64,000 nt of DNA from Aureimonas altamirensis (GTDB lineage Bacteria; Pseudomonadota; Alphaproteobacteria; Rhizobiales; Rhizobiaceae), in NCBI RefSeq assembly GCF_023702225.1, contig NZ_JAMQCO010000002.1:460327-524326 (forward strand), written 5' to 3'. Under the pieces are notes generated by a model. That model worked only from the letters and a program-made list of their open reading frames with translations. It had not been told where the DNA came from and made no database searches. A program made the position numbers and the translations under genes. Shown here piece after piece: positions 30,498 through 54,593 of the stretch (positions are counted from its first letter, which is position 1; each line of letters starts with the position of its first letter).

Positions 30498-30532
30498 CTA
30501 GAGCGTTTCCATATGAGTAGGAAACGCTCTAG
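30498..30532. repeat. 13-bp inverted repeat (dispersed-repeat candidate)
   Basis: CTAGAGCGTTTCC (30498-30510) is perfectly inverted at 30520-30532 around ATATGAGTA. The right arm contains the stop codon of the ATPase gene (30529-30531). A near-identical half copy lies at 9285-9306, 21 kb away, which suggests a dispersed intergenic repeat family rather than a local terminator; there is no T-run. Confidence 0.7.
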
Positions 30533-38025: not shown

Positions 38026-39453
38026 ATGGCGCTGATCGAAACGACCCACCTCAAGGTCTCCGCGGCCGCAAGGCGGCGGCAAGGCCGGACACTGAACTAC
38101 GACACCATCGCCACGGTCGCCGCCGTGCTGGATGTGGTGCTGATCGTCGGCAGCAGTATCACCGCCGGCATCGCATACCACTGGTTAGCCTTCGGCGTGC
38201 TGATCGATCCCTCGCCCTGGATCGGCGTCGGCATCACGCTGGCCGCCGCCTTCGTCCTGACGATGAGCGCCGGCGGTCTCTACAAGCCGACCGCGCTGCT
38301 TTCGTTCGGCACGCAGTTTCGGGCGATCCTTCTGGCCGGCGTCGGCATCATGGCCTTTCTGGCCAGCGTCGCCTTCTTCCTGAAGATCGGCGAGATCTTC
38401 TCGCGCGCATCCATGCTGGCCTTCATGCTTCTGGCGATGACGGTCCTGACCATCAGCCGCCTCGCCTGGAAACGGCACCTCCATGCGGCCATGGCGCACG
38501 GCCTGTTCCAGATGAAGCGCGTCCTGCTGATCTGCGGCGAATCCTTCGACTACGACAAGATGGCCGCCGACGTGGCGCGCTACGGCCTGTCGATCCATCA
38601 TGTGCTGCGCTGCCCGAACGATGATTTCACCGCGCTATCGGGTGCGTTCAGCGCCGGCATCGGCTTTTCCGTCGACGAGGTGATGGTCGCCACGCCGGCC
38701 GGCAACCTGCCGATGGTGGATACGCTTTTGACCGAGCTGCGTGCCTTGCCGCTGCCGATAAAGCTCGTCGTGAACGATTTTGCCGCCGGCCTCGTCACCC
38801 AGCCGGTGCGCCATATCGGCGACAATCTCGCCTTCGAGATCCAGCGCCGGCCGCTGACCCTTGCGGAGCGGGCAATGAAACGCGCCTTCGACATCGCGTT
38901 CGCCTCGGCCGCGCTTGCCTTCCTGGCGCCCTTGTTCGTGGTCGTCGCGATCGCGATCAAGATCGACAGCCGTGGCCCCGTCTTCTTCCGTCAGTCCCGG
39001 CGCGGCTACAACAACGCGGCGTTCCGCATCGCCAAGTTCCGCTCCATGCGCGTCATGGAGGATGGCGAGACGGTAACCCAGGCGCGGCGCAACGACGACC
39101 GTATCACGCGCGTCGGCGCCTTCATCCGCGCCAAGAGCATCGACGAGCTGCCGCAGTTCTGGAACGTCCTGTGCGGCCACATGTCCATCGTCGGTCCGCG
39201 CCCGCATGCCGTGGCGCACGACAAGGAATACGACCAGCTCCTGAAGAAATACACCTTCCGCCGCCACGCCAAGCCGGGGCTGACCGGCTGGGCGCAGATC
39301 AACGGCTGCCGTGGCGAGACGCCGACGCTGACGCACATGGAAGAGCGGCTGACGCACGACCTCTGGTACATCCACAACTGGTCGTTCCTGCTGGACATCC
39401 GCATCATCTTCCGCACGGTCGTGGAGATGATCTCGTCCAAATCGGCCTACTGA
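38026..39453 (+). CDS. Undecaprenyl-phosphate sugar phosphotransferase (WcaJ/ExoY-like)
   Basis: A 475-aa polyprenyl-phosphate glycosyl-1-phosphate transferase that would start repeat-unit assembly. N-terminal half has four membrane helices and a CoA-binding-like soluble domain (KRVLLICGESFDYDKMAADV); the C-terminal catalytic half begins KRAFDIAFASAALAFLAPLFVVVAIAIKIDSRGPVFFRQSRRG, then AKFRSM, RVGAFIRAKSIDELPQFWNV, SIVGPRPHA and AKPGLTGWAQINGCRGET. All are standard for WcaJ-type enzymes. ATG 38026 is preferred; ATG 38002 is also in frame. The stop overlaps the phosphopantetheinyl transferase stop by seven bases. Confidence 0.92.
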   Translation: MALIETTHLKVSAAARRRQGRTLNYDTIATVAAVLDVVLIVGSSITAGIAYHWLAFGVLIDPSPWIGVGITLAAAFVLTMSAGGLYKPTALLSFGTQFRAILLAGVGIMAFLASVAFFLKIGEIFSRASMLAFMLLAMTVLTISRLAWKRHLHAAMAHGLFQMKRVLLICGESFDYDKMAADVARYGLSIHHVLRCPNDDFTALSGAFSAGIGFSVDEVMVATPAGNLPMVDTLLTELRALPLPIKLVVNDFAAGLVTQPVRHIGDNLAFEIQRRPLTLAERAMKRAFDIAFASAALAFLAPLFVVVAIAIKIDSRGPVFFRQSRRGYNNAAFRIAKFRSMRVMEDGETVTQARRNDDRITRVGAFIRAKSIDELPQFWNVLCGHMSIVGPRPHAVAHDKEYDQLLKKYTFRRHAKPGLTGWAQINGCRGETPTLTHMEERLTHDLWYIHNWSFLLDIRIIFRTVVEMISSKSAY

Positions 39454-40115
39454 GCCGTCTCCGACTTCAGGCAGAATGCAGTGACGATATGGCCGCCTGC
39501 CACACGCAGGCGGCCATGCCATGTCAGGCCCGCCCGGAAAGGGCCGACATCGCCCTGCCACGTGGCCCGAAACGCCCCGCCCGGCACATCCAGCGCCACC
39601 TCGAACATCTCGAAGCCGAACAGCACCCCGCTTGCCGGATACTGCGCCTTGTAGACGCATTCCTTGGCGCTGAAGATCAAGCGGGCGGCGAGCCCGGCTT
39701 CGTCCGGCGGCATGGCGGACAATCGGTCCCGTTCTGCCGGCGTCAGAACTGTTTCCCACAGATCCGGCGGCAGAGGCTGCGCCAGCTCGATGTCCAGCCC
39801 GACAAGGCGGACCCCATCCTCCCTGCGGCCGAGCGCCACCCCGCACAGCGCCGGCGAGTGGCTGATGCTGCCGACGATGCCATCGGGCCAGCACGGGGAT
39901 CTGTCCGCGCCTGCCGGGATCGCGGCCGGCTCGCGGCCGAGGGCGGCCAGCGCCTGCCGCGCCAGCACCCGCCCGGTGGCGAACTCGGCCCGACGCCGCT
40001 CCACGGCACGGGCGACGAATGCCTCCTCCAACGGCAGAAGCCCCTCCGCCCGGTAAGGCGGAAGGGCTTCTGCAGTGGCGATGGCAGGGCCGAAAAGGCC
40101 CGGCAGAAAGGTCAT
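39447..40115 (-). CDS. 4'-phosphopantetheinyl transferase (Sfp/EntD-like)
   Basis: A 222-aa enzyme moving phosphopantetheine from CoA to carrier-protein serines. VGSISHSPALCGVAL, VGLDIELAQPL (metal-binding Asp-x-Glu), FSAKECVYKAQYP (catalytic Lys/Glu region) are the P1-P3 motifs, and the length fits the EntD group. Its ATG overlaps the NRPS stop (ATGA, 40112-40115), so it is translationally coupled to the megasynthase and most likely activates the NRPS carrier and the PKS ACP encoded here. Confidence 0.95.
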   Translation of the reverse strand: MTFLPGLFGPAIATAEALPPYRAEGLLPLEEAFVARAVERRRAEFATGRVLARQALAALGREPAAIPAGADRSPCWPDGIVGSISHSPALCGVALGRREDGVRLVGLDIELAQPLPPDLWETVLTPAERDRLSAMPPDEAGLAARLIFSAKECVYKAQYPASGVLFGFEMFEVALDVPGGAFRATWQGDVGPFRAGLTWHGRLRVAGGHIVTAFCLKSETAQ

Positions 40116-43100
40116 CCGGTCTCCCGCACGCGCCCGAACCCGGCGCGCCGTTCGTTCATGGCGTTGCGGCGCATGGCAGCACGATCGGCCACCCGGTTCA
40201 AGCGCTCGTCCGCCTTGCTGTCGCCGCCGATATGGGCGGCCAGCCCGCCGGCCGTGGGGAAGCGGAACAGATCGGTGATCGTCAGCGCCGGCGCGATGCC
40301 GGCCTTCAGTTCCCGGTGCGCCTGCACCGCCAGCAACGAATGGCCGCCGAGGGCGAAGAAGCTGTCGTTCAGGCTCACCCGCTCGACTCCCAGTATGCGC
40401 TGGAAGACCTCGACGACGGCGCGCTGGATGGCGTTGTCCGGCGCCTCGTAAGCCGCAGCCGATTCCACCGACGCCGCGGCTTCCGGCTTGGGCAGCAACT
40501 TGCGATCCACCTTGGCGTTCGGCGTCAGGGGGAAAGCCGTCATCGACACGTAATGGGCCGGCAGCATGTAGTCCGGCAGGTCGCGCGCAAGCTCGGCGCG
40601 CAGCGTCGCATCCGGCACGGCCGGCCCGTCGAACCGCAGATAGGCAACCAGCCGCACGTCGTCCTTGCGGTCTTCACGCGCCATCACCACGGCCTCGGCA
40701 ACGCCTGGAAGGGCGTTCAGCCGCGTCTCGATCTCTCCCAGTTCGATGCGGTAGCCGCGCACCTTCACCTGGTGGTCGGCCCGGCCGAGGAAGTTGAGGA
40801 CACCGTCGGCCGTCAGGCAGGCCAGGTCGCCCGTCCGGTACATGCGCCCACCCGCGAAGGGGTTCGGCACGAAGCGTTCCGCCGTCAGGTCGGCGCGGTT
40901 GAGGTAGCCGCGCGTAACCCCGTCGCCACCGATATGGAGTTCGCCCGGCGTGCCGGTGGGCACGGGCTCGCCCGCGCCGTCCAGCACGTAAAGCTGCGTA
41001 TTGGCGATCGGCCGGCCCAGGGGCACCACACCGTCCTGTGCCCGCGCCGTCAGCGTGGACGACCAGATGGTGGTTTCGGTGGGCCCGTACATGTTCTCCA
41101 CCGTGGCGCCGGAAATGGAGCTGAGCTCCCTGACCAGCGATCCATGCAGCGCTTCGCCCCCGATGAAGAGGTGACGCACCGAGCCGAGCGCATTCCGGTT
41201 GTCGGCGGAATCGAGGAACATGCGCGCCATCGAAGGCGTGCACTGCATATGGGTTACGCCGTGGCGGCGGATGAGAGACGCGAAACCCTCGCCCTCCTCG
41301 CCGGCCGGCGCGGCAACGGCGTTGCCCCCGGCCCGATTGCGGGCGACGAGCGCGGCCAGCGGCTTGAGACCCTCGAGCACGGCGTCGCTCGCCACGCCGA
41401 AATCGATGAGGCAGGCCACGTCGTCGACGCCGATGGCGGCAATTTCGTCCAGCCGTCTGGCGCCGTCCTCGATGGTTCCGAACAGGCCGGAATCCTCGAA
41501 ATAACGCTGGAAGGCGAATTCCAGGATCGCGTCCGTCTCTTCCTCGGTCAGCGAGCGAAGGTCGATATCCATCGCCTGTGCGGCGCCCGCCGGCCGCTTG
41601 AAGGCCGGAAAGGCCCAGGCGTACTGCTTGATCAGCGCGGCGGCACTTTTCAGGTAGGCCTTCATCGGCCCGCGGGCCATGTCACGCACGCTTTCACGGT
41701 CATCGCCGATCAGCGTGTGCAGCATCAGCGTGACCTTGTAGTCGTCCGGGTTGCGGCCGCATTCCCGCAGCGTATCGCGGTAGATGCGGATCTTGCCGGC
41801 AAGCTCCTCGACGGACTGGCCGAGAAGATGGGTCAGAACGTTTGCCCCGGCGCGCGCCGCCTCGCGGTAGGTGTCGGGGTTGCCGGCAGTGGTTATCCAC
41901 ACCGGCAGTTCCTTCTGCACCGGGCGCGGCTGCGTGACATAGGAGGCCTTGCCCGCCCCGAAGTCGAACTCGACCGCTTCGCCGCGCCACAGGCGGCGCA
42001 CGGTGTCCACGTCGCGCAGCATGGCGCTCTTGTTGTGCGGCGGCGCATTTTCCGGGCGCAGGGCGAAATCCTCGGGCATCCAGCCCGAAGCGAAGGCCAG
42101 GCCGACACGCCCGTCGCTGAGATTGTCGAGGACGGCCCACTCTTCCGCCACACGCAGCGGATGGTGCAACGGCAAGACGCAACTGCCGGCGCGGATGGAC
42201 AGGTTGCGCGTGATGGAGGCTACGGCCGCACCCGTGACGGCCGGGTTCGGATAGGGTCCGCCGAAGGCATGGAAATGCCGCTCCGGCGTCCAGATCGACT
42301 GGAAACCGTGCTCGTCGGCAAACCGCGCCCCCTCGAGCAGCAGCCGATACTTGGCCGGGCCGGCGCCATCGTCATTGCCCCAGTAGAACAGGCCGAAATC
42401 CAGCACCTTCGAAGTGCCGGCAAGGGCCGTGGCGGATGCGCCTTCGGCCTCGCCACGATAGACCACCACCTTGAAGCCGCGCGCCAGCGTCCAGAAAAGC
42501 TCCAGGACGGAAATGTCGAAAGACAGGCTGGTGACGGCAAGCCAAACCTTCTGCCCGGCCGCGTCCATGCCCTGGATCCGGTCGTCCATGCCGACATGGA
42601 AATTGACGACGTTGCGATGCTCCACCATCACGCCCTTGGGCCGGCCGGTGGAGCCGGACGTGAAGATGACATAGGCCAGATTGTGCGGAGCCGCGCCCGA
42701 AGACGGCCGCTCCGACGGCCAGTCGCCCGCCAGAACATCCTCGATGACCAGCGTGCGAACGCCCGCCAGCGCCGGCGAGTCCTTCAACGCACGCTCCGTC
42801 AGAACGACGGGGGCCGCGCTGTCCTCGACCATCATCGCAAGGCGGTCTGCCGGGAAATGCGGGTCCAGCGGCACATAGGCCGAGCCGGACTTATGGATGG
42901 CGAGCGCCCCTGCAACCAGGTCGATCCCCCGCTCCACATGCAGCCCGATCAGGATGTCGGGCCCGGCGCCGGCCGCGAGCAGCGCATGGGCGAGGCGGTT
43001 GGCGCGCTCGTCCAGCGCGCGATAGCTCAGCTCCCGGGTGCCGGCGGCGACGGCCGGCGCATCCGGGGTGCGGTCGGCCTGGGCCTCGATCATGCCATGC

Positions 43101-44701
43101 ATCGTGGCCGTGCGGTCGTACTGCTTTTCCGATTCGTTCAGCCCGTACAGGATGCGATGGCGCTCCTCCGTCGTCATCAACGGCAGGTCCTGCATTCGCT
43201 GCACCGCGTTGAAGGAGCCGGCCAGCACCGCAACGCGGCCGGCAAGCGCGTCGGCCGCCTCGTCGTCGATGCGGCGCCGATCGTGGATCAGCGCCGAGCG
43301 GCCGTTGGCGAAGGCGAAGGTCAGCGCCGCGCCGGCAACCGGCTCCATGCCATAGGACAGGGCGACGGAAAGTTCGGCATCGCGCGCACCGGGAGTGCGG
43401 GCCGGAAGGTCGGCGGCACAGAGGCCGCGTGCGACCAGCGCGACGGCGCGTTGCTCGAAGCGCTCGGAAAACGCAGCCGGGGCCTCATCCGCCGAAAGTT
43501 GTATGCGCAGCGGCAGCGCCTCGCGGAAGAAGCCCGGGAAACCGTGCGCGGCCGCGAGCGCCGTTTCGGAAACATGGGCGATGTCGAAGCTCGTCTCTCC
43601 GGTCAGCCGGTAGAGGAAGGCAGCCACCGCGGCCGGCGTGACGCTCGGAGCCAGGGATATCGTCCGCATTTCCGCCGGCCCGGATGCCCTGCTGTCGCCG
43701 GGGATGTCGAGGTCGACCAGCGTTGCGAAGCGGTTGCGGAAGAAGCCCTCGTTGGCCGCGGCTTCCTCGCCCGTGGCCAGCAGGCGCTCGGCCTGCCCTT
43801 CGCCCATGCGCGGCAGGATCTGCCCCACCGAAAGGACGGAGGAGAGGGGCAGACCCTTCGGGCACCGACCTTCCACCCTGATGGGACGGTCGGCCGTGGC
43901 GATCACGGCCGCCGTGCCCTCGACGCCCATAACCGTGCCCGGTACGCCCCGCGACGCGCCATCGACGATGTCGAGCGCGGTCAAGGTCAGGATGGCCGCG
44001 TCGGTTACGATCTTGGGCGTTGCCAGCGGGTTCCGGTAGCCGTCGCCGAAGCTCAGGGCGCGAAACATGCGGGAGGCCGCCTCGGCCCCGTCCTCGAAGG
44101 CGATCGCGCCGAGGCGCGCGGGCCGCTTCTGGCGCATGAAGAGCTGGCGGTCGGTGAAGTCCTGCGGCACGGGCCGCAGCGACCCGTCCTCGAGGCCCGG
44201 CAGCATATCGGCAAAGGCCGCCAGGCCGGCCTCGAAACACTTGGTGTTCAGCGTCAGCGCCGTGTCGTCGGGGGCGATCTCGAAATCAGCCCGCGCATAG
44301 ATGCCGCCTTCGTCGATGCCGTCGGTGATCGAGTGCCAGGTAATGCCATGGCGCTCTTCGCCGGCCAGCAGCGCCCAGCTCGGCGTGTTGAGGCCGGCGT
44401 ATCGGGGCAGCGGGCCATCGTGGAAGTTGATGGAGCCGCGGCGGGCGCGCCGCCACACGCTCTGCGGGATCATCCGCAGATTGGCGATGCTGAACAGATA
44501 GTCGAAATCCTGCGAAGCCAGCGTCTCGCTGAGGTCGCCGCCCCACTCCAGCACCTTGATGCCCGCGCCCTCGGCCCATTGGCGGACAGGTCCCGAGGCC
44601 GTCACGATGGCTGCGATGGCGTGGCCCCGCCCCGTCAGCCGCCGCGCACATTCGACAAGCAGGGATTCATCCCCGACAAGGACACACTGAAATACGGCCA
44701 T
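40112..44701 (-). CDS. NRPS: formyltransferase - half condensation - adenylation split by luciferase-like monooxygenase - carrier
   Basis: A 1529-aa megasynthase. Residues 1-about 290: methionyl-tRNA-formyltransferase-like domain (NFHDGPLPRYAG near residue 90). About 340-535: C-terminal half of a condensation-like domain; no HHxxxDG is present. About 540-760: adenylation part one (YVIFTSGSTGRPKGV, A3; FDIS with D729, A4). About 765-1110: FMN-dependent luciferase-like monooxygenase of the MupA/Atu3671 family (DFGLFYWGN, TPERHFHAFGG, LDNLSDGRVGLAFASGW). About 1110-1420: adenylation part two (NMYGPTETT, YRTGDLA, K1397 in NAKVDRKLLP). About 1430-1500: carrier with S1455 in LGGHSLL. No thioesterase. 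D729 fits an alpha-amino acid substrate. Confidence 0.92.
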   Translation of the reverse strand: MAVFQCVLVGDESLLVECARRLTGRGHAIAAIVTASGPVRQWAEGAGIKVLEWGGDLSETLASQDFDYLFSIANLRMIPQSVWRRARRGSINFHDGPLPRYAGLNTPSWALLAGEERHGITWHSITDGIDEGGIYARADFEIAPDDTALTLNTKCFEAGLAAFADMLPGLEDGSLRPVPQDFTDRQLFMRQKRPARLGAIAFEDGAEAASRMFRALSFGDGYRNPLATPKIVTDAAILTLTALDIVDGASRGVPGTVMGVEGTAAVIATADRPIRVEGRCPKGLPLSSVLSVGQILPRMGEGQAERLLATGEEAAANEGFFRNRFATLVDLDIPGDSRASGPAEMRTISLAPSVTPAAVAAFLYRLTGETSFDIAHVSETALAAAHGFPGFFREALPLRIQLSADEAPAAFSERFEQRAVALVARGLCAADLPARTPGARDAELSVALSYGMEPVAGAALTFAFANGRSALIHDRRRIDDEAADALAGRVAVLAGSFNAVQRMQDLPLMTTEERHRILYGLNESEKQYDRTATMHGMIEAQADRTPDAPAVAAGTRELSYRALDERANRLAHALLAAGAGPDILIGLHVERGIDLVAGALAIHKSGSAYVPLDPHFPADRLAMMVEDSAAPVVLTERALKDSPALAGVRTLVIEDVLAGDWPSERPSSGAAPHNLAYVIFTSGSTGRPKGVMVEHRNVVNFHVGMDDRIQGMDAAGQKVWLAVTSLSFDISVLELFWTLARGFKVVVYRGEAEGASATALAGTSKVLDFGLFYWGNDDGAGPAKYRLLLEGARFADEHGFQSIWTPERHFHAFGGPYPNPAVTGAAVASITRNLSIRAGSCVLPLHHPLRVAEEWAVLDNLSDGRVGLAFASGWMPEDFALRPENAPPHNKSAMLRDVDTVRRLWRGEAVEFDFGAGKASYVTQPRPVQKELPVWITTAGNPDTYREAARAGANVLTHLLGQSVEELAGKIRIYRDTLRECGRNPDDYKVTLMLHTLIGDDRESVRDMARGPMKAYLKSAAALIKQYAWAFPAFKRPAGAAQAMDIDLRSLTEEETDAILEFAFQRYFEDSGLFGTIEDGARRLDEIAAIGVDDVACLIDFGVASDAVLEGLKPLAALVARNRAGGNAVAAPAGEEGEGFASLIRRHGVTHMQCTPSMARMFLDSADNRNALGSVRHLFIGGEALHGSLVRELSSISGATVENMYGPTETTIWSSTLTARAQDGVVPLGRPIANTQLYVLDGAGEPVPTGTPGELHIGGDGVTRGYLNRADLTAERFVPNPFAGGRMYRTGDLACLTADGVLNFLGRADHQVKVRGYRIELGEIETRLNALPGVAEAVVMAREDRKDDVRLVAYLRFDGPAVPDATLRAELARDLPDYMLPAHYVSMTAFPLTPNAKVDRKLLPKPEAAASVESAAAYEAPDNAIQRAVVEVFQRILGVERVSLNDSFFALGGHSLLAVQAHRELKAGIAPALTITDLFRFPTAGGLAAHIGGDSKADERLNRVADRAAMRRNAMNERRAGFGRVRETG

Positions 44702-44986
44702 CGCAATCGGCTCCGAATATTCTTTCGAGAAATATCTGCCGGACTATGGCCAAGGCCGGAATGAAAGATCAATTTGCACTTCCGGCGACGTCGGAAGGAT
44801 GGTGTCGGCGGTAGGCCCTACTTCGGAAGCGGTAGCAAGCTCCGCAATTTTATCCGTTCGGCATAAGCCCGATCTTTCCAAATGCTATCATGACGCACGC
44901 CGCCCGAGGGCTTACCCCTGTTGCCAGCGGCACCGTGACGTTTTCGCCGCGCAATCGATTTTCAGAAGATTTGCGGGCGGAGCGAT
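44702..44986. other. Divergent control region between NRPS and PKS genes
   Basis: About 285 bases separating the two megasynthase genes, lower in GC than either. An imperfect palindrome CTTCCG-N7-CGGAAG lies at 44779-44797, and CTTCGGAAG recurs nearby at about 44820. Ribosome sites are visible at both ends. The two genes are probably controlled together from here, but no regulator gene is adjacent. Confidence 0.5.
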
Positions 44987-47900
44987 ATGGCCAACGAAAC
45001 GATTTCACCGAACGACATAGCCATCGTCGGCATGGCGCTGCGCGTCCCAGGCGCAAAGAACGTGCGCGAGTTCTGGGACAATCTGTGCAACGGCGTGGAA
45101 TCGATCCGCACCCTCAGCCGCGAAGAGCTGATCGAGGCGGGGGAATCGCCCGACCGGATCCACAACCCCAACTACGTGCCCCGCGCCGCCGACCTCGACG
45201 AGATGGAGCAGTTCGACGCCGACTTCTTCGGGCTCAGCCCCAAGGAAGCGGCCATCATGGATCCGCAGCACCGTCAGTTCCTGGAATGCGCCTGGGAGGC
45301 GATGGAGGATGCCGGGCGCACGCCCGACGCAAGCGCCGGCCCCGTCGGCGTGTTCGCCGGCTGCGGCATGGGCAGTTATTTCTACTTCAACGTCTGCAGC
45401 AACCGGCAGTTGTTGGAAGACACCGGCATGTTCCTGCTGCGCCACACCGGCAACGACAAGGACTTCCTGTCCACGCGCGCATCCTTCACCTTCGATCTGC
45501 GCGGCCCGAGCGTGAACGTGCAGACGGCCTGCTCCACCTCGCTCGTCGGCGTGCACTATGCCTGCCAGAGTCTGATGAGCGGCGAGTGCGACATGGCGCT
45601 GGCCGGCGGCGTGACGATCGAACTGCCGCACCGCCGCGGCTACACCTTCCAGGACGGCGAGATCCTGTCGCCCGACGGCCATTGCCGCGCCTTCGACCAT
45701 CGCGCCGCGGGCACCGTGTTCGGCAGCGGCGTCGCCATCGTCGCGCTGCGGCGCCTTTCCGACGCCATTGCCGATGGCGACGTCATCCATGCGGTCATCA
45801 AGGCGAGCGCCATCAACAACGACGGCGGCACCAAGGCCGGCTATCTCGCCCCCAGCGTATCCGGCCAGGCCGAAGCCATCGTCGAGGCGCAGGTGCTGTC
45901 GGGGCTGGATGTCGACACGATCGGCTATGTCGAATGCCATGGCACCGGCACCTATCTCGGCGATCCGATCGAGGTGGAGGCGCTCACGCAGGCCTTCCGC
46001 CAGGGCACCGACAAGACCGGTTTCTGCCGGATCGGCTCGGTCAAGACCAATATCGGCCATCTCGATACGGCGGCCGGCGTCGTCGGCCTCATCAAGGCGG
46101 CGCTGGTGGTGAAGCACGCAATGGTGCCGCCCAGCCTCAATTACGAAAAGCCGAACCCGTCCATCCCCTTCGCCGACAGTCCCTTCGTCGTAAACGACCG
46201 GTTGAACGCATGGACCGATCTGGGCGCGCCCCGGCGGGCCGCCGTCAACTCGCTCGGTGTCGGCGGCACCAACGCCCACGTGATCCTGGAGCAGGCCCCC
46301 GCCGGCTACGGCGGCGGACGTCCGGACACTGCCGACAACGACAACGCCCCGCGCCTTCTGGTGTTCTCCGCCCGCAACCGCAAGGCGCTCGACGGCGCCG
46401 TCGCCCGCCTGTCGGCGCGGCTGAAGCAGGATGCCTCGCTGAGCCTCGCCGACACCGCCTTCACTTTGGCGACCGGCCGCAAGACATTCGAGCATCGGCG
46501 GGTCGTGGCCGTGCGCGGACGCGGCGACGCCATCGAGGTGCTGGGCGACGCCGAAACGCGCCGCGCCTTCACGCATACAACGCTGGACACTCCGTCGGGC
46601 GCCGTCTTCCTGTTTCCGGGCGGCGGCGCGCAGCATACCGGCATGGCGGCGCGCCTCTATGCCGAGGACGCGGCCTTCCGCGCCACGGTCGAGGAGGGAC
46701 TTGCGGCCCTTGCCCCCGAAGCCGCGCGCGAAATCCGCGCCGCCTGGCTGGAAGCACCCGCCGGCGATGCCAAGGCGGCCGAAGCCCTTTTGAAGCCGTC
46801 GGTCCAGCTTCCCGCCATCCTCATCATCGAGATCGCGGTCGGCCGGCACCTGATGGCGCACGGTATCCAGCCGCAGGCGCTGATCGGCCATTCCATGGGC
46901 GAAAACGCGGCGGCCTGCCTTGCCGGCGTCTTTTCCTTCGCCGATGCCGTGCGCCTGGTGCGGCTGCGCGGCGAACTTTTCGACACCATCGCGCCCGGCG
47001 GCATGCTGAGCGTGCCGATGGACCCGGCGGCCCTGAAGGCGCGCCTGCCCGAGGCGCTGGACCTCGCCTCCGTCAACGCTCCGCAATTCTGCGTCGTATC
47101 GGGCCTCAACGAGGATCTGGAGGCGTTCCGCCAGTCGCTGGCCGCCGATGGCATCGACGCCACGCGAGTGCCCATCGACATCGCCGCCCATTCGCGGATG
47201 CTCGACGCCATCCTGCCCCGTTTCGAGGCCTTCCTGCGGACCATCCGGCTCGGCGCTCCGCGCATTCCCATCGTATCCAACCTCACCGGAACCTGGCTGA
47301 CGGACGCCGAGGCCACCGACCCGCTCTACTGGTGCCGCCATCTGCGTTCCACCGTGCAGTTTGCGCTGGGGATGGGTCTTCTGGCGCAGGACAAGGCGCG
47401 CATCTACGTCGAGGTCGGGCCCGGCCGCGCCCTGTCGTCGCTTGCCAAGGCGCAGGGCTCGATCGACGCCAACCAGATCGTCAACGCCCTGCCCCATGCC
47501 GACGAAAAGGGTGACGACCGGCTGAGCCTGATGGCCGCTCTGGGCCGCCTCTGGGCAACCGGCCTTTCCGGCGATTTCGACCGTCTGTGGACGGCGCCCG
47601 GGGCGCGCCGCGTCTCGCTGCCTACCTATGCCTTCCAGCATCGTCGCTACTTCATCGAGGCAGCCGCCCGCGAGCAGCAGGGCCCCGAGGCCCCCGCCCT
47701 GGTGCGCCGGGACGACCTGTCGCAATGGGGCTACCGCCCTGTCTGGAAGCGCTCCGTCGCCGATATCGAAAGCGATGGCGAGATGGTGAAGCGTTTCTGG
47801 CTGATCTTCGAGGATGACGCGGGCATCGGGGCCGGCGTCACCGAACGCCTGCGCGCGCTCGGACACCGCGTGGCGACGGTGCGGCAAGGCGATAATTTCG

Positions 47901-50900
47901 GCAAGCGCGGATCCGACTCCTACGTCCTGTGCCCGGAAGGCGACCGGTCGGGCTACGACGCGCTGTTCAGCGGGCTTGCCGCCGACGGCGAGTTGCCCAC
48001 CGAGATCATCCATCTGTGGCTGCTGACGCAAGGCGAAAGGCACCGCCCCGGCTCCAGCTTCTTCCACCGCAACCAGGAATGCGGCTTCTACAGCCTGCTG
48101 CATCTGTCGCAGGCGATGGCCGACGCCGGCATCGCCGCCCCCCTGCACCTGACCGTCGCCACCAACGGCATGCAGCGCGTAGGCGACGAAGCCCTGCCCT
48201 ATCCGGACAAGGCCACCGTTCTCGGCCCATGCCAGGTCCTGCCGAAGGAGATGCCGGGCGTTACCGTCCGTGTCGTCGACTTCGACCTGCCGCACGCGGC
48301 GGCCGGGGCCGAAAAGCGCCGTGGCCTGTTCGTCCGCGGCAAGGCCGAGGTTCAAACCCCGTCCGGCACGACGCCCGACGATCTCTGGAACGAGCTTCTC
48401 GGCGCACCGGCATCCGAGATCGTGGCATGGCGCAAGGGCCAGCGCTGGAGCCGCAGCCATGCGGCGCTGAAGCTGCCCGAGACGGGCGAAGTGCCCTATC
48501 GCACCGGCGGCGTCTATCTGTTCACCGGCGGCCACGGCGACCTGGCGCTGGCGCTGGCCGGCCAGTTGGTCGAAAGGCATGCGGCGCGTATCGCGCTCGT
48601 CGGCCGCCGCCCCCTGCCCTCGCGGGAAGAATGGCCGAGCCTGAAGCACGCGCTGCCCCGGGGCGACCGTCTGCGCAAGCTGATCGAAGCCGTTGAGGCC
48701 ATGGAGGCCGCAGGCGGCGACGTGCTGTGCCTTTCTGCGGATGTCGGCAACCAGGAAGCCATGACCGCGGCGGTGGAAGAGACACGTCGCGCCTTCGGGC
48801 GGATCGACGGCGTGTTCCATGCCGCCGGCCTCGTCAAGGACGACTTGATCCCGCTGAAGACGCATATGGACGTCGAGGAGGTGTTCAGCCCGAAGGTGCT
48901 GGGCACCAATGTCCTGGCGAACGTGCTCGACCGTGAGACGCTGGATTTCCTCGTCCTCTTCTCCTCCACCAGCACCGATACGGCCCCGGCCGGCCAGGTG
49001 GACTACGTTGCGGCCAACGCCTACCTGAACGCCTTTGCCGAAGCCGAGCGCCGCCGCACGGGCCGCAAGACGGTGGCCGTGCACTGGGGCATCTGGGACG
49101 AGACCGGCCTTGCGGCCCGCGCCATGGGCCGCGCCCGCGCCGACAGCGCCGGCCAGCCGGTGCGCCACGGCCCGTTCTTCGAGCGGTGGGAGGCCGACGC
49201 CAACGGCGTCGACTGGCTGGAACGCACCATTTCGCCGGAGCGCGATTGGCTGCTGTCCGAACATCGGCTGACATCCGGCACGGCCCTCTTGCCGGGCACC
49301 GGCTATATCGAACTCATCGCGGAGGCAGCGCGCGAATACGGGCTGCCATCCAGGCTGACCCTGTCGGACCTCGTCTTCCTTCGGCCGCTCGACGTTGCCG
49401 ACGGCGCAGAGAAGATCGTGCGCACCCGTCTGGAAAAGCGCAAGGACGGCTGGCGCGCCACCATTCTTGCCGCGACTGCCGGGACGGCCTGGCAACGCCA
49501 CGCCGAGGCTTCCGTCGGGTTCGGCGGCGCAGAAGCGGGCCTGCTGGACGTTCGCTCCGCCTTCGAGCGGTGCCCGGACCGCCGCGCCGCGCCGGAGGGC
49601 GGCTCGCTGGTTGCCGCCCAGGAAGGGCACGTCCGCTTCGGCCCGCGCTGGCGCGTGCTCAAGCAGCTCGGCCTCGGCCAGGGTGAAGCCCTGGCCGAAC
49701 TGACGCTGGCTCCGGAAGCCTGCGGCGATGCCATGTTGCTGCATCCCGCGCTGATGGACATCGCCACGGGCTGCGCGATGGAGCTGATCCCCGGCTACGG
49801 GGAAACGGATGTCCTGTGGGCGCCCGCATCCTATGGGCGCATCGAGGTTCATGGGCCCCTGCCGCGCCAGATCTACAGCCATCTGCGCCTTGCCGACGCC
49901 GGCGACCTCGGCGATGGTTATGCCGCCTTCGACGTGACGTTGGCCGGCCCGGACGGCGTCGCCGTCGTGGAGATCGAGCGCTTCATCATCAAGCGGCTCG
50001 CCAGCGATACCGGCTTTGCCGGGGCCGAAGCCCCCGCCCCGCTGGCGCCGTCGGCAAGCCCGGCCCTGTCACCGGCCGTCGCGGCGCTGGCCGCGCAGGT
50101 GGCGCAGGGCATCCGGCCGGCGGAAGGGTTCCAGCTTCTGCAAAGGGCGCTCGCAACCCAGGAGACGCAGCCGATCATCTCGTCGATCGACCTGCACGCC
50201 CTGATCGCGCGGGCGGCACAGCCGGCAGCCGAGCCGGCGCGTCCGGCACAGCTGTTCGAGCGTCCGGCTTCGGAGCGCGATTACGTGGCGCCGCGCAATT
50301 CGGTGGAGCGCCGTCTTGCGGCCTTCTGGCGCGAGTTGCTCGGCATCGAGGAAATCGGCGTCGACGACAGCTTCTTCGACATGGGCGGCCACTCGCTGAT
50401 CGCGGTGCGCCTGTTCCGGATGATCCGCCAGGAATACGGCGTCGACTTCCCCATCTCGGTCCTGTTCGAAGCGCCGACCATCGCCGCCTGTGCGCGGTTG
50501 ATCGCCGAAAGGACGGGCATTTCCGAAGAGGGCGACGAAGCCGCCGCAGCCTCGAGCACGGAGGCGGCGCCCGCCGCGCGTATGACGCATCTGGTGGCCA
50601 TGCATCCGGGACGCGATCCCAAGGCGACGCCCTTCTTCCTGTGTGCCGGCATGTTCGGCAATATCCTGAACCTGCGTCACCTGGCATTGCATCTGGGCGC
50701 CGACCGCCCCGTCTATGGTCTGCAGGCGCGCGGGCTCTACGGTATGGAAGCGCCCCACGAGACGTTCGAGGCGGCGGCTGCCGACATCCTGGCGGAAATC
50801 CGCATGGTGCAGCCGCACGGGCCCTACCTTCTCGGCGGCTTCTCGGGCGGCGGCATCACCGCCTTCGAGATCGCGCGGCAGTTGACGGAAGCCGGGGAAA

Positions 50901-51442
50901 CCGTCGAGCGCCTCATCATGCTGGACACACCGCTGCCGACGCAGCCGGCGATCAGCCAGCTCGACCGCTTCGACATGAAGCTGCAGGACATACGGCGCAA
51001 CAAGCTGTCCTTCGTGTCGCAATGGTGGCGCAACCGCATGCTGTGGGAAAAGGAAAAGCGGGAGCGGGAGTCCGCAGCGGCCGGCGAAACCGGCGGCGAG
51101 CAGTTCCACAACCACAATATCGAGGCGGCCTTCCGCCGTGCGCTGGAGCTCTACAACGTGCGGCCTTATGGAGGGACGGTGCATCTGTTCCGCCCCGTGC
51201 CGGACGTGGTCTACCGCCTGCGCGACGGCCGCAGGCTGCAGGAAGGGCGGACCATCGTACTGGATGACAATGGCTGGACGCCGCATGTCGACGAGCTGGT
51301 CGTCTCCATCGTCCCGGGAGACCATGACGGGATGGTGCTGGAGCCGTGCGTGCGCGTGCTGGCGCAACGCATGCGCCAGTGCCTGGCCGAGGCGGAAGCC
51401 GCCCGCGGCGACGATGACGGGATGCTGATGGCGGCGGAGTGA
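44987..51442 (+). CDS. Type I polyketide synthase, single module KS-AT-KR-DH-ACP-TE
   Basis: A 2151-aa megasynthase. KS about residues 8-430 (C182 in VQTACSTSLVG; HGTGTYLGDPIE; KTNIGHLDTAAG). AT about 530-850 (S636 in GHSMGE). A structural linker (about 905-1150) precedes the KR, 1170-1390 (FTGGHGDLA; Y1340 and N1344 in YVAAN). DH about 1420-1690 (H1426 in EHRLTSGTALLPG; LHPALMDIATG). ACP about 1770-1850 (S1803 in DMGGHSLI). TE about 1880-2130 (S1953 in GGFSGGG; H2113 in PGDHDGM). KR precedes DH, the reverse of the usual order. It would extend an acyl unit once, reduce and possibly dehydrate it, then release it. Confidence 0.93.
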   Translation: MANETISPNDIAIVGMALRVPGAKNVREFWDNLCNGVESIRTLSREELIEAGESPDRIHNPNYVPRAADLDEMEQFDADFFGLSPKEAAIMDPQHRQFLECAWEAMEDAGRTPDASAGPVGVFAGCGMGSYFYFNVCSNRQLLEDTGMFLLRHTGNDKDFLSTRASFTFDLRGPSVNVQTACSTSLVGVHYACQSLMSGECDMALAGGVTIELPHRRGYTFQDGEILSPDGHCRAFDHRAAGTVFGSGVAIVALRRLSDAIADGDVIHAVIKASAINNDGGTKAGYLAPSVSGQAEAIVEAQVLSGLDVDTIGYVECHGTGTYLGDPIEVEALTQAFRQGTDKTGFCRIGSVKTNIGHLDTAAGVVGLIKAALVVKHAMVPPSLNYEKPNPSIPFADSPFVVNDRLNAWTDLGAPRRAAVNSLGVGGTNAHVILEQAPAGYGGGRPDTADNDNAPRLLVFSARNRKALDGAVARLSARLKQDASLSLADTAFTLATGRKTFEHRRVVAVRGRGDAIEVLGDAETRRAFTHTTLDTPSGAVFLFPGGGAQHTGMAARLYAEDAAFRATVEEGLAALAPEAAREIRAAWLEAPAGDAKAAEALLKPSVQLPAILIIEIAVGRHLMAHGIQPQALIGHSMGENAAACLAGVFSFADAVRLVRLRGELFDTIAPGGMLSVPMDPAALKARLPEALDLASVNAPQFCVVSGLNEDLEAFRQSLAADGIDATRVPIDIAAHSRMLDAILPRFEAFLRTIRLGAPRIPIVSNLTGTWLTDAEATDPLYWCRHLRSTVQFALGMGLLAQDKARIYVEVGPGRALSSLAKAQGSIDANQIVNALPHADEKGDDRLSLMAALGRLWATGLSGDFDRLWTAPGARRVSLPTYAFQHRRYFIEAAAREQQGPEAPALVRRDDLSQWGYRPVWKRSVADIESDGEMVKRFWLIFEDDAGIGAGVTERLRALGHRVATVRQGDNFGKRGSDSYVLCPEGDRSGYDALFSGLAADGELPTEIIHLWLLTQGERHRPGSSFFHRNQECGFYSLLHLSQAMADAGIAAPLHLTVATNGMQRVGDEALPYPDKATVLGPCQVLPKEMPGVTVRVVDFDLPHAAAGAEKRRGLFVRGKAEVQTPSGTTPDDLWNELLGAPASEIVAWRKGQRWSRSHAALKLPETGEVPYRTGGVYLFTGGHGDLALALAGQLVERHAARIALVGRRPLPSREEWPSLKHALPRGDRLRKLIEAVEAMEAAGGDVLCLSADVGNQEAMTAAVEETRRAFGRIDGVFHAAGLVKDDLIPLKTHMDVEEVFSPKVLGTNVLANVLDRETLDFLVLFSSTSTDTAPAGQVDYVAANAYLNAFAEAERRRTGRKTVAVHWGIWDETGLAARAMGRARADSAGQPVRHGPFFERWEADANGVDWLERTISPERDWLLSEHRLTSGTALLPGTGYIELIAEAAREYGLPSRLTLSDLVFLRPLDVADGAEKIVRTRLEKRKDGWRATILAATAGTAWQRHAEASVGFGGAEAGLLDVRSAFERCPDRRAAPEGGSLVAAQEGHVRFGPRWRVLKQLGLGQGEALAELTLAPEACGDAMLLHPALMDIATGCAMELIPGYGETDVLWAPASYGRIEVHGPLPRQIYSHLRLADAGDLGDGYAAFDVTLAGPDGVAVVEIERFIIKRLASDTGFAGAEAPAPLAPSASPALSPAVAALAAQVAQGIRPAEGFQLLQRALATQETQPIISSIDLHALIARAAQPAAEPARPAQLFERPASERDYVAPRNSVERRLAAFWRELLGIEEIGVDDSFFDMGGHSLIAVRLFRMIRQEYGVDFPISVLFEAPTIAACARLIAERTGISEEGDEAAAASSTEAAPAARMTHLVAMHPGRDPKATPFFLCAGMFGNILNLRHLALHLGADRPVYGLQARGLYGMEAPHETFEAAAADILAEIRMVQPHGPYLLGGFSGGGITAFEIARQLTEAGETVERLIMLDTPLPTQPAISQLDRFDMKLQDIRRNKLSFVSQWWRNRMLWEKEKRERESAAAGETGGEQFHNHNIEAAFRRALELYNVRPYGGTVHLFRPVPDVVYRLRDGRRLQEGRTIVLDDNGWTPHVDELVVSIVPGDHDGMVLEPCVRVLAQRMRQCLAEAEAARGDDDGMLMAAE

Positions 51443-51515
51443 TCCGCCGCCTACCCCTTAAGACTCTGTCACGATGCCGTGAAAGTAGAGATTGATGAGG
51501 GGATTATTTTCCAGT

Positions 51516-51533
51516 TCAATGTGAACACATTGA
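51516..51533. promoter_or_regulatory. 18-bp palindrome upstream of the GMC oxidoreductase (operator candidate)
   Basis: TCAATGTG-AA-CACATTGA, with perfect 8-bp arms, lies in the AT-rich 220-base gap between the PKS stop and the oxidoreductase start, about 130 bases upstream of the latter. The form suits a dimeric regulator (TetR/GntR/MarR/CRP-like). TTGTTT (51564-51569) and TATTTT (51588-51593), 18 apart, are a possible promoter just downstream. Confidence 0.5.
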
Positions 51534-51662
51534 GCCGTATTAAGACCAAGCCTTCCCAACTTGTTGTTTGAATACGGTTTCTGGAATTATTTTAACCTTT
51601 TCTGCGAGACTGCCTCGCCACTTTTTCCGGCGTCGTCATCTCACCCACTCGGAATAACCCAT

Positions 51663-53357
51663 ATGATCCACGATGATTTCGATGGCCTTGGGACATCCTT
51701 TTCCGGCGTTTGCATCGTCGGGGCCGGACCTATCGGCATTGCATTGGCAGTCGAGCTCGAGCGACTGAAGATTCCCGTCCTGCTGCTGGAATCGGGCGGC
51801 CACCGCCAGTCCGGCTCCATCCAGGCGCTTGCCGAGGCGGACTTCTCGACGCCCGACCGGCACGACGACATGAGCGTGGCGACGGCGCGCGCGCTTGGCG
51901 GCACGTCCAACCTGTGGGGCGCCCGCTGCGTCATATACGATCCGGTCGATTTCGTGCCGAGGCCGGGCCTGGTGAACGCGAGCTGGCCAATCTCCTATGA
52001 CGAGATATTCCCCCATTACGCGCGGGCATGCCAGATCGCCGATACGGGCGACGTCGTCTACAGCGCGCCCGTCCCGGGCGTGACCTGCCAGGATGACAGC
52101 TTTACCTTCGATACGCTGGAGCGCTGGGCAAACGAACAGAAGCTACACGTCACCCATCGCAAGCTCCTGGCGCGCAGCCCGCTGATCGACGTCCGGCTGC
52201 GCTGCGTCGTCACCGATATCGGCATATCGCCCGATGGGCGGGTGCGCGACGTGGAGATCGTCCGCGCCGATGGCGAGGAACGGCGACGCCTGGGCGTGGA
52301 CAGGCTCGTCATCGCTGCCGGAGGTCTGGAAAGCGCCCGGCTCCTGCTGGCTACCCAGCGCCGGCATACGAGCCTTTTCGGCGGACCGGACGGCCCTCTC
52401 GGCCGATACTACATGGGACACCTGATCGGCGAGATCGCCGATATCACCATGGCGACCGGCGATATCGACAAGGCCTTCGACTTCTTCGTCCACGACAGCG
52501 GCTCCTATGTCCGCCGGCGCTTCGTACCCAGCATGGAAACCCAGCTGCGCGAGGGCGTACTGAACACCGCGCTGTGGCCGGTGGTGCCGCCCGTCGCGGA
52601 TCCGCGCCATGGCAGCCCCATCCTGTCGCTCGTCTACCTCGTGATGGCGCTGGGGCCCGTCGGGCGCCTGGTCGTCGCCGAGGCGATCCGGCGGCGGCAT
52701 ATTCCCGATGCCCCGCGTGAGATCAGGGCGCATTTGCGCAACGTCCTGACGGGCGCACCGGAAGCGATGGCGCAAGCCGCCAGCTTCCTGATGCGCCGTT
52801 ACGGCCGGCGCGAACGCCTGCCGGGCCTGTTCGTGCATAATCGCAACCGCCGCTACGGCCTGTCCTATCATTCGGAACACAGCCCCGATCCGCTCAGCCG
52901 CGTCTGGCTGACAGACAAGACCGATGCGCTCGGGCTGCCCCGACTCGAGATCGACCTGCGTTTTCCGCGCTCGGACGCGGAGTCCGTGGTCCGGGTGCAC
53001 GACCTGTTCGAAAACTGGTTGCAGGCGACGGGATTCGGCCGGATCGATTATCGCGTGCCCCGCGAGGATCGGGTGGCTTCGGTCATGGCCCAGGCCAGGC
53101 ACGGCACGCACCAGATCGGCATGATCCGCATGGGTGCGAACGCCCGCGAAGGTGTCGTCGACGGCAACCTCCGCAGCTTCGACCTGCCCAATCTGTTCGT
53201 CACCAGCACGGCGGTTCTGCCGACGTCCGGCCAGGCGAACCCCACCTTGACCGCCATGGCCCTCGCCGTGCGCCTCGCCAACCGCCTTTCGGCGGAAAGC
53301 GAAGGCAAGGTGACGCAATTTCGCAAGGTGAACATGCGTGGCAGCGTGGCGGCATGA
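51663..53357 (+). CDS. GMC-family FAD oxidoreductase
   Basis: A 564-aa flavoprotein. VCIVGAGPIGIALAVELER is the FAD Rossmann motif; RALGGTSNLWGARC matches the GMC GGxS(N)xxxG region; the C-terminal ARHGTHQIGMIRMG and LFVTSTAVLPTSGQANPTLTAMALAVRLA carry the His and Asn/His active-site positions. GMC members oxidise alcohols, sugars and polyols. Its place next to the PKS and under the palindrome suggests tailoring of the product or of a sugar, but this is inference. ATG 51663 (MIHDDFD) has GGAA about ten bases upstream; a longer frame covers only the intergenic region. Confidence 0.88.
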   Translation: MIHDDFDGLGTSFSGVCIVGAGPIGIALAVELERLKIPVLLLESGGHRQSGSIQALAEADFSTPDRHDDMSVATARALGGTSNLWGARCVIYDPVDFVPRPGLVNASWPISYDEIFPHYARACQIADTGDVVYSAPVPGVTCQDDSFTFDTLERWANEQKLHVTHRKLLARSPLIDVRLRCVVTDIGISPDGRVRDVEIVRADGEERRRLGVDRLVIAAGGLESARLLLATQRRHTSLFGGPDGPLGRYYMGHLIGEIADITMATGDIDKAFDFFVHDSGSYVRRRFVPSMETQLREGVLNTALWPVVPPVADPRHGSPILSLVYLVMALGPVGRLVVAEAIRRRHIPDAPREIRAHLRNVLTGAPEAMAQAASFLMRRYGRRERLPGLFVHNRNRRYGLSYHSEHSPDPLSRVWLTDKTDALGLPRLEIDLRFPRSDAESVVRVHDLFENWLQATGFGRIDYRVPREDRVASVMAQARHGTHQIGMIRMGANAREGVVDGNLRSFDLPNLFVTSTAVLPTSGQANPTLTAMALAVRLANRLSAESEGKVTQFRKVNMRGSVAA

Positions 53358-53396: not shown

Positions 53397-54593
53397 TCAG
53401 GCCCTGAACAGTTCGGCGAGGTAGCCGGCTTCCCGCGACAGGTCGTGCCGCTGGCGCACCAGCGCCTGTCCGCGCCGGCCCATGTCCTCGCAGGCGACAT
53501 CCGGCGTATCGAGGCAGCGACGCATCGCGTCCGCGGCCTCTTCCACCGAGCCTGCGCCGAAGAGCCAGCCCGTCTCCCCTTCCTTGACGAGTTCGGGGAT
53601 GGCCGCGATCCCCGTGGCCAGCACGGGGCGCCCGAGCGCGTAGGATTCCATGATGACCACCGGAAGTCCCTCGGCGAAGCTGGTCAGGATCATGGCGCGC
53701 GATGCCAGGAGCTGCGCGCGCACCTCCTCGCCACTCGCCCAGCCGGTGATCCGCACGACCCCTTCCAGCCCTTCCGACCGTATCAGACCGTCGATCTCGC
53801 TGCGCAACTCACCGTCGCCGACGAGGACCAGCTCGAAATCGACACCCTGCCGGTGCAGGAGGCCGGCTGCCTGCACGAGGATCCAGTGGCCCTTCTGCCC
53901 GCCGAGCCGACCGACGCAGACCATCCGCCTCGGATGGGAAGGCGGCGGCGGATTGTCGAGGAAATAGGCGGGGTCGAGGCCGCAGCGGACGATCCGGACC
54001 TTGCTCCAGTCTTCGAAGGCGGCCCAGCGGAAGATCTGGCTGGCGCAGAAATGGCTGATCGCCGCGACGAAGCGCGCGCGCGCCACCTTCTCACCCAGCT
54101 TCATGAAGCGCGGTGCATCGAATTCGTCCGGCCCATGGACGGTGAAGCTGTAGGGAATGTCCGAAAGGCACGATGCCAGCATGGCGACTTCCGCCGAGTT
54201 GGTGCCGAAATGCGCATGGATGTGCGTTACGCCGGCCTTCTCGAGATATTCGACGAGCAGACACGCCTCGGCCAGGGTGATGGCATGAAGCGCGGGGGAG
54301 CGATCGCTTCGCCGCATCATGGTCGCCGCCAGCCTCACCGCCCGCCGGAATTTTCCAGGGCGCTTCGTGGCCAGCCGCAACGTTGCGGCAGCCAGCGGCC
54401 GCGCACCGTCCTTCAGCAGGTAATAGGTCCTTTGCTGCTCGGCCCTGTCGTCCGGATCCACCAGGTCGGCGTCCCATCCCCGCATCGCGGTTCGCACCAC
54501 GGTCTGGCCGGCGGCTTCCAGCGCCAGGATCTCGCGCCGGATGAAGCTGTGGCTCGTCTTGGGATATTGATTGATGATGTAAGCGACCTGCAT
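53397..54593 (-). CDS. Glycosyltransferase family 4
   Basis: A 398-aa GT-B enzyme. VAYIINQYPKTSHSFIRREILAL is typical of the colanic-acid WcaL/AmsK-like group; HIHAHFGTNSAEVAMLA, FTVHGPDEFDAP, VCVGRLGGQKGHWILVQAAGLL and the EX7E region SFAEGLPVVIMESYALGRPVLAT are present. It probably adds a sugar to the exopolysaccharide or to the NRPS/PKS product. It converges with the oxidoreductase gene, with 39 bases between stops. Confidence 0.92.
   Translation of the reverse strand: MQVAYIINQYPKTSHSFIRREILALEAAGQTVVRTAMRGWDADLVDPDDRAEQQRTYYLLKDGARPLAAATLRLATKRPGKFRRAVRLAATMMRRSDRSPALHAITLAEACLLVEYLEKAGVTHIHAHFGTNSAEVAMLASCLSDIPYSFTVHGPDEFDAPRFMKLGEKVARARFVAAISHFCASQIFRWAAFEDWSKVRIVRCGLDPAYFLDNPPPPSHPRRMVCVGRLGGQKGHWILVQAAGLLHRQGVDFELVLVGDGELRSEIDGLIRSEGLEGVVRITGWASGEEVRAQLLASRAMILTSFAEGLPVVIMESYALGRPVLATGIAAIPELVKEGETGWLFGAGSVEEAADAMRRCLDTPDVACEDMGRRGQALVRQRHDLSREAGYLAELFRA

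Follow-up and report, generated by a model that had tools for sequence, protein, structure and literature searches.

Formyltransferase-started nonribosomal peptide synthetases (NRPSs), glycine-activating NRPS modules with an oxygenase inside the adenylation (A) domain (Gly-A-MOX modules), and polyketide synthase (PKS) genes in capsule loci are already known, each separately. LgrA of the linear gramicidin pathway has formyltransferase-start activity and represents the formyltransferase-A-T type of initiation; Gly-A-MOX modules are found in the myxothiazol/melithiazol pathways, in module 4 of SolF of the solanimycin pathway, and in some corallorazine-like clusters; and RkpA, a capsule-locus PKS, has an ER-containing module proposed to make an acyl chain. 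Here, we present a computational analysis of a 64,000-nucleotide stretch of Aureimonas altamirensis DNA (contig NZ_JAMQCO010000002.1, positions 460,327 to 524,326; referred to as the window), in which a formyltransferase-led NRPS with an oxygenase-bearing A domain and a single-module PKS are encoded inside an exopolysaccharide (EPS) locus. Our searches of the open-licence literature gave no description of a formyltransferase, a Gly-A-MOX module, and a PKS combined in an EPS locus. The link between the NRPS-PKS pair and EPS is well supported, while the product, its attachment, and its function are what we infer. Taken as a whole, our best explanation is that the pair is a component of an EPS pathway, and in this we have even confidence. 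That the pair has some role in the pathway of the EPS locus is likely; that its product is incorporated covalently into the polysaccharide is close to evenly balanced, leaning toward doubt; and any exact structure predicted for this product is far less certain than that.

The core of the locus consists of four genes, with positions given as those of the window:

39447-40115, minus strand: phosphopantetheinyl transferase (PPTase) of the Sfp/PptT type (PF17837, PF01648)
40112-44701, minus strand: NRPS with a formyltransferase, an A domain split by an oxygenase, and a T domain (Pfam and NCBIfam)
44702-44986: divergent intergenic region between the NRPS and PKS genes, 285 bases, GC 0.55
44987-51442, plus strand: PKS, KS-AT-(KR prefix)-KR-DH-T-TE
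51663-53357, plus strand: GMC-family oxidoreductase, with an alternative TTG start at 51561

The PPTase and NRPS genes overlap by 4 bases. For the GMC gene, the ATG at 51663, which was chosen by the gene caller and is read in the sequence, is the more likely start over the TTG. We found no frameshifts or stops in the genes of the window, and relative to the A. altamirensis locus L027, the dN/dS values are 0.08 (NRPS), 0.07 (PKS), 0.06 (GMC), and 0.24 (PPTase); all four genes are intact and under purifying selection. An earlier sequence-only reading of this stretch had arrived at the same gene content, coordinates, and 285-base divergent gap, and had named a frameshift as an argument for decay. 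With no stops, dN/dS values of 0.06 to 0.24, and catalytic residues kept, a decayed locus is ruled out for the window. Some relatives do look decayed or poorly sequenced: one of the 12 family hits (G145) has an in-frame TGA, and the NRPS of locus L101 and the PKS of locus L048 were gene-called in pieces. The GC content of the four genes (0.678) is slightly above that of all 20 stretches sampled from the same genome (0.627 to 0.672; mean 0.655), yet the NRPS tree places the window with Aureimonas, leaving a recent foreign island unsupported.

The same reading took this to be a compact stand-alone locus. Instead, the NRPS-PKS genes are enclosed by a full Wzx/Wzy-type EPS gene set at approximately 24.5 to 54.6 kb of the window, and are flanked by an undecaprenyl-phosphate glucose phosphotransferase gene on the left (convergent) and a GT4 gene on the right:

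24562-26097, minus strand: u13 family protein, conserved, apparently exported, and glycoside-hydrolase-like, assigned by its motifs (SNEVWN and YEGG)
26098-27078, minus strand: GT2 glycosyltransferase "GT2a", of the family found between PKS and NRPS in Rhodobacterales
27384-28988, plus strand: Wzy-type polymerase/O-antigen ligase family protein (PF04932, 45.1 bits; 10 hydrophobic segments)
28998-30377, plus strand: Wzx-type flippase (MOP flippase model under cut-off; Wzx profile)
30529-31377, minus strand: AAA_22 ATPase
31423-32232, minus strand: BY-kinase-like protein (XrtA-associated tyrosine autokinase model, under cut-off)
32244-33785, minus strand: Wzz/XrtA-type chain-length determinant (172 bits, under the cut-off of 278.85)
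33843-35207, minus strand: Wza-type polysaccharide export protein (PF02563)
35218-36369, plus strand: GT2 glycosyltransferase "GT2b"
36701-37900, plus strand: GT2 glycosyltransferase "GT2d" (longer open reading frame [ORF], 36626-37900)
38026-39453, plus strand: undecaprenyl-phosphate glucose phosphotransferase of the WcaJ type (TIGR03023, 422 bits; cut-off 410.75)
53397-54593, minus strand: GT4 glycosyltransferase, EpsE-like (model under cut-off)

The set comprises an initiating phosphoglycosyl transferase, a flippase, a polymerase, a chain-length protein, an outer-membrane export protein, and glycosyltransferases; the NCBIfam matches of the flippase, the chain-length protein, the kinase, and the GT4 are under the curated cut-offs. 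AAA_22 ATPases are associated with XrtA-type EPS clusters.

The same surroundings recur in relatives. In a tblastn search with the NRPS, 3049 plasmid records matched, and all 17 with at least 80% coverage are alphaproteobacterial. Among six of these whose surroundings were inspected, the three annotated records have polysaccharide genes, those of glycosyltransferases included, close to the NRPS-PKS pair, and the three without annotation have EPS-type profile matches. A scan of named genomes with a 14-homologue alignment matched at least 592 stretches, 580 of which encode a relative, and the 80 best-scoring of these 580 loci were analyzed. They are mostly from Hyphomicrobiales and Rhodobacterales, with single records from Hydrogenophaga and from metagenome-assembled genomes (MAGs) of Myxococcales, a deltaproteobacterium, Salinivenus, and an unspecified proteobacterium; the closest to the window among these best 80 is from A. 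altamirensis (94%). The PKS is present in 76 of the 80 loci (72 full-size ORFs and four partial ones) and the PPTase in 68. EPS-family profiles built from these loci were run on their six-frame ORFs. At least one, two, and three EPS-type genes were detected in 78, 70, and 62 of the 80 loci, respectively, and in 62, 59, and 56 of the 62 loci that are at least 20 kb long; in 39 random 20-kb stretches (19 from genome G064 and 20 from the window's own), the corresponding numbers are 3, 2, and 1. When matches of at least 100 bits are counted, at least one and at least three EPS-type genes are present in 76 and 58 of the 80 loci, in 61 and 52 of the 62 loci of at least 20 kb, and in 2 and 0 of the random stretches. 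An independent baseline agrees with this enrichment: the window's own genome (4.33 Mb) has 16 GT2 matches (PF00535), three of which are in the EPS/NRPS-PKS locus, and three initiating transferases, one of which is in this locus.

Neighboring proteins were clustered; each family was named from a Pfam search with a single representative, and the families were then mapped on the loci. Because the NRPS was missed by the gene caller in several loci (L029, L039, L040, L050, L051, and L100), the counts based on it (clustering, mapping, and gene order) are lower bounds. PKS, GT2a, and NRPS genes are consecutive on one strand in 47 of the 80 loci; in 33 of the 47, GT2a is separated from each of its two neighbors by −4 to +5 bases. 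The NRPS adjoins the PPTase in 65 loci, Wzx adjoins the PKS in 23, and in 10 the genes are arranged divergently, as in the window. Loci from Hyphomicrobiales and Rhodobacterales have EPS families in common, with differing gene orders. The comparison of synteny across Hyphomicrobiales suggested in the sequence-only reading shows the EPS-embedded arrangement recurring in this order and in Rhodobacterales.

Within the genus, the NRPS and the PKS are present in the same six of 21 genomes. The GT2a and glycoside-hydrolase-like genes of the locus are found in five of these six and in none of the other 15, and its Wzz in these five as well, plus a single distant match (28%) elsewhere, all in counts that ignore kinship. 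The sixth genome has the pair at 56 to 57% identity, beside matches to GT4, u11, GT2d, WecG, GT2b, and Wzx. At E 1e-200, 12 of 151 genomes in the family and seven of 385 in the class have the pair (own genome included, as in the genus count), a patchy distribution that makes it an accessory trait. Across loci, NRPS distances correlate with PKS distances (r = 0.95; 67 loci) and with GT2a distances (r = 0.76; 59 loci), both uncorrected for species kinship. In a midpoint-rooted NRPS tree of 74 rows, the window groups with two other Aureimonas rows (100% support), and the rows from Hyphomicrobiales and those from Rhodobacterales lie on opposite sides; with 85% support, Hydrogenophaga is placed within the latter, which hints at gene transfer.

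The NRPS has the following organization:

Residues 57-163: formyltransferase (Formyl_trans_N; Pfam)
Residues ~310-530: C-like remnant (weak similarity)
Residues 539-759 and 1124-1397: A domain (AMP-binding; Pfam), in two parts
Residues 769-1118: FMN luciferase-like monooxygenase (Bac_luciferase/TIGR04020), inside the A domain
Residues 1428-1491: T domain (PP-binding; Pfam)

The top PDB match of the NRPS is LgrA, with which it has an N-terminal formyltransferase with the conserved N-H-D in common; for the formyltransferase itself, the closest PDB sequences are ArnA, FMT, and kin. Unlike LgrA, the window NRPS has a C-like remnant and an oxygenase after the formyltransferase, a glycine-type code, and a single PKS module next in line. 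As in Gly-A-MOX modules, the oxygenase sits within the A domain. It matches TIGR04020 (MupA/Atu3671 family) with 471 bits, above the curated cut-off of 244.45, and its closest PDB relative is PuwE (6ket; 2.5e-107), a monooxygenase reported from a cyanobacterial lipopeptide (puwainaphycin) pathway. However, Gly-A-MOX modules elongate or end the line, whereas the window module starts it behind a formyltransferase and without a recognizable C domain. In the myxothiazol and solanimycin modules, an upstream C domain accepts the peptidyl or polyketide chain; the window NRPS has no Pfam Condensation match. Residues ~310 to 530 are weakly similar to the C-lobes of C domains (best E 0.049) and may be a vestige of an elongation module in the ancestor. 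The stretch between the formyltransferase and the A domain (window 43106-43795; residues ~303-532) is poorly conserved. N92, H94, and D130 of the formyltransferase and the T-domain Ser, which, like the other motifs assigned in the NRPS and the PKS, we take to be catalytic, are conserved in all 80 NRPS rows (the window and 79 homologues kept by a length filter).

The A-domain code, with positions taken by eye from the alignment according to GrsA numbering, is DILQFGMIWK in the window. Across the 80 rows, it reads DILQ[MFLYA]GM[IV]WK, with eight of the ten positions invariant; position 5 is M in 35 rows, F in 22, L in 20, Y in 2, and A in 1, and position 8 is I in 78 and V in 2. Module 2 of LgrA incorporates glycine, and its code has four of ten positions in common with that of the window (by eye); because this match is poor, the assignment of glycine depends on the MOX-bearing A domains. 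In a survey, the four glycine A domains with MOX all have the code DILQLGMIWK (PMC12283262), which is found exactly in 18 of the 80 rows and agrees with the window at nine of ten positions. Judged by its code, the A domain most likely has glycine as its substrate, which makes the amino acid predictable; the sequence-only reading was right to leave the product class open. In passages on corallorazine, oxygenases of glycine A domains are described to hydroxylate the α-carbon, after which the N-C bond breaks and the carrier keeps glyoxylate (PMC11342130); for solanimycin B, the corresponding passages propose that a Gly-A module carrying an FMO domain yields an α-hydroxyglycine, which is retained in the product (PMC10204066). 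We consider the oxygenase step to be probably central to the pathway.

The PKS comprises, in order, KS, AT, KR prefix, KR, DH, PP-binding, and Thioesterase domains (Pfam/NCBIfam), with the DH located C-terminal to the KR; no ER domain was found in it by Pfam. In 70 of 70 PKS rows (the window and 69 homologues), the KS Cys/His/His, AT Ser/His, KR Ser/Tyr/Asn/Lys, DH His/Asp, T Ser, and TE Ser/His together with the likely TE Asp are invariant; in the KR cofactor motif, 67 rows keep the third glycine and three have Ser instead. The assembly line as a whole has two carriers and one terminal TE, and the Pfam and NCBIfam matches bear out the minimal NRPS-to-PKS line with a formyl start that had been read from the sequence. 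The order of steps proposed in that reading (formylate, load, extend, reduce, possibly dehydrate, release) holds as a line but leaves out the oxygenase.

Combining the family assignments of the formyltransferase, A, oxygenase, KS, AT, KR, DH, and TE, the simplest predicted product is a glycine-derived C4 acid that is N-formylated, perhaps hydroxylated on the former glycine carbon, and has a β-hydroxyl or a 2,3-double bond. In this scheme, the A domain would load glycine on the NRPS carrier (T1), and the formyltransferase would N-formylate the T1-bound glycine. The FMN monooxygenase would then hydroxylate the α-carbon to give N-formyl-α-hydroxyglycyl-T1; loss of formamide would leave glyoxylyl-T1 instead. 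The KS would add one malonyl-derived C2 unit, the KR and DH would reduce and possibly dehydrate the β-keto group, and the TE would release or transfer a short C4 acid. The C4 group could be of the 4-formamido-3-hydroxybutanoyl or 4-formamido-crotonyl type, possibly with a 4-hydroxyl. The acid would be incorporated into the repeat unit, or attached to it, with the help of the neighboring glycosyltransferases, and the polymer would be flipped by Wzx, polymerized by Wzy, and exported by Wzz/Wza; where present, the GMC enzyme may oxidize a hydroxyl on either the acyl or the sugar moiety. The embedded glycosyltransferase gene, the Wzx, Wzy, Wzz, and Wza genes, and the presence of the u11 family (see below) in 32 of the 80 loci are consistent with an acyl unit being attached to the polymer or made part of it. 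We propose, tentatively and with somewhat less than even confidence, that the two-protein line makes an N-formyl-(α-hydroxy)glycine-derived C4 acyl unit that is a covalent building block of an EPS, in a pathway distributed patchily across many Rhodobacterales and Hyphomicrobiales.

Several observations weigh against the pair being a component of the EPS pathway. No membrane acyltransferase family (MBOAT, acyltransferase 3) is represented among the scanned genes of the window, which leaves the attachment step without an obvious enzyme, and the TE could release a free acid. A TolC-family gene (c47) adjoins the PKS in an Aminobacter locus (L009, 7822-9165), and genes of the same family are found in L031 and L045; such a gene beside the PKS, as in some Hyphomicrobiales, would fit the export of a free small molecule. 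In ten of the 80 loci, at most one EPS-type gene was detected (seven are shorter than 20 kb; L068, L075, and L106 are longer), and L106 has no EPS-type match of at least 100 bits. No PKS is present in 18 kb of L034 (Hyphomicrobiales MAG) or in 24.5 kb of L036 (Devosia limi), the latter of which has EPS genes and a PPTase nonetheless; from these two loci, the NRPS may sometimes be functional without an adjacent PKS. L037 and L051 also lack a PKS, on 7-kb contigs. Finally, as to the comparison itself, the loci were taken by score and not by random sampling, profiles made from the tested loci favor these loci over the controls, and the tested loci have a mean length of 23 kb versus 20 kb for the control stretches.

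Among the alternatives, a free small molecule (a signal, an antibiotic, or other) that is co-produced with the EPS and perhaps held noncovalently in its matrix is unlikely but the one that we take most seriously. It would account for the terminal TE, for the TolC-family genes in Aminobacter, L031, and L045, and for the second NRPS gene near a Paracoccus locus. On the other hand, it does not account for the GT2 gene embedded between the PKS and the NRPS in 47 of the 80 loci or for Wzx beside the PKS in 23, and no small-molecule exporter, resistance gene, or regulator was recognized among the 18 neighbor families present in at least 10 loci, where u10, u11, and u13 gave no Pfam match and the rarer families are mostly unnamed. 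The second NRPS gene (L012, 3-2531) is a different one, in the same polysaccharide region of a plasmid of Paracoccus sp. Arc7-R13.

We consider it improbable that the PKS works iteratively, starting from N-formylglycine, and so provides a lipid anchor or carrier with its acyl chain, in the manner of RkpA/WcbR, for which such a role in capsule loci is often proposed. In favor of this, lipid-type PKS models, PfaA among them, match the PKS, each with a score under the cut-off. Against it, the lack of an ER domain makes a saturated chain unexpected, and the PKS has an NRPS partner and a fused TE. As described in passages of one paper, rkpA and wcbR are likewise type I PKS genes inside polysaccharide (capsule) clusters, but these passages mention no NRPS partner, and the likeness is one of description and not of sequence (PMC3908369). 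The window PKS differs in lacking an ER, in its KR-DH order, and in its T-TE end, and its domain order is unlike the KS-AT-DH-ER-KR-ACP module that the same passages give for the related SwfA (PMC3908369).

A shared neighborhood without a shared function, i.e. a natural-product pair parked in EPS islands, has a similarly low probability. The patchy occurrence of the pair in the genus, family, and class speaks for it, as does the concentration of gene exchange in EPS loci. Against it stand the operon-type spacing with GT2a and the PPTase, the sharing of EPS families across two orders despite different gene orders, and the exclusive co-occurrence of the tested genes with the pair in the genus. 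The likeness to the Atu3671-type Agrobacterium locus, a siderophore locus, to which the sequence-only reading had pointed by family name, is seen at the level of the oxygenase domain (TIGR04020) only, and a siderophore or metallophore is set aside as very improbable, since, as that reading had also noted, no receptor or uptake gene is found among the genes scanned (~18.8 to 60.6 kb of the window), the glycine-type code does not predict a chelating residue, and relatives are adjoined by EPS genes instead.

Two neighbor families of the proposed EPS pathway, together with u10, had no Pfam match for their representatives in the family naming. u13, matched in 27 of the 80 loci, comprises proteins of ~500 to 850 amino acids, some with an extra N- or C-terminal part, and its invariant Asn-Glu and Tyr-Glu motifs (SNE.WN and YE.G) resemble those of clan-A glycoside hydrolases. 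The window copy (predicted model pLDDT 78.9) has no Pfam match, and a PDB sequence search gave no meaningful match. From its motifs, u13 could be an undescribed glycoside hydrolase family. u11, which is absent from the window (present in, e.g., L011, L054, and L070), is an apparently exported SGNH-like protein of ~310 amino acids, as indicated by a GHSL...DxxH motif, with weak similarity to DUF4886 and a confident predicted model (pLDDT 90.6); a PDB profile search gave no match. It adjoins the PPTase gene, often 3' of it, in 21 of the 80 loci, and might acylate or deacylate the polymer.

Beyond the 80 loci, three more (L107, L108, and L109) have no EPS-family match. Judging by the part of the query that is covered, L107 and L109 keep the oxygenase and lack the formyltransferase, and L109 is adjoined by a type I PKS, while L108 keeps the formyltransferase part and lacks the oxygenase. 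In Aliiroseovarius sp. M344 (NZ_CP081154.1), the PKS match, hit H49, lies in a gene that the annotation gives as one NRPS/type I PKS, perhaps a natural fusion.

Clusters of this kind have been reported in Roseobacter genomes. In the passages concerned, the locus tags Inhi_1972/1974 of Phaeobacter inhibens leave one gene between PKS and NRPS (PMC4062626); a PKS/NRPS cluster is reported for Aquicoccus/Rhodoalgimonas (PMC10608839), and Aquicoccus porphyridii is also our locus L057, with coordinates unmatched; and Tritonibacter AK171 has a T1PKS/NRPS hybrid without known similarity, which we liken by description and not by sequence (PMC11225332). The Roseobacter clusters are probably the same gene pair as that of the window, and the Tritonibacter cluster perhaps is. 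In their passages on these clusters, the three papers treat them as secondary metabolism and leave the polysaccharide genes unlinked (PMC4062626, PMC10608839, PMC11225332). Our searches of open-licence papers gave none that connects the pair with EPS. The predicted formyl start on an oxygenase-bearing glycine module would be a combination for which our searches of the open-licence literature gave no counterpart. Small two-enzyme lines such as this one are commonly associated with antibiotics. If our explanation is correct, assembly-line enzymes would feed a polysaccharide with a non-sugar unit, and a hybrid cluster regarded as an orphan, from alphaproteobacteria that are marine or associated with plants or soil, would move from secondary metabolism to surface-polymer chemistry.

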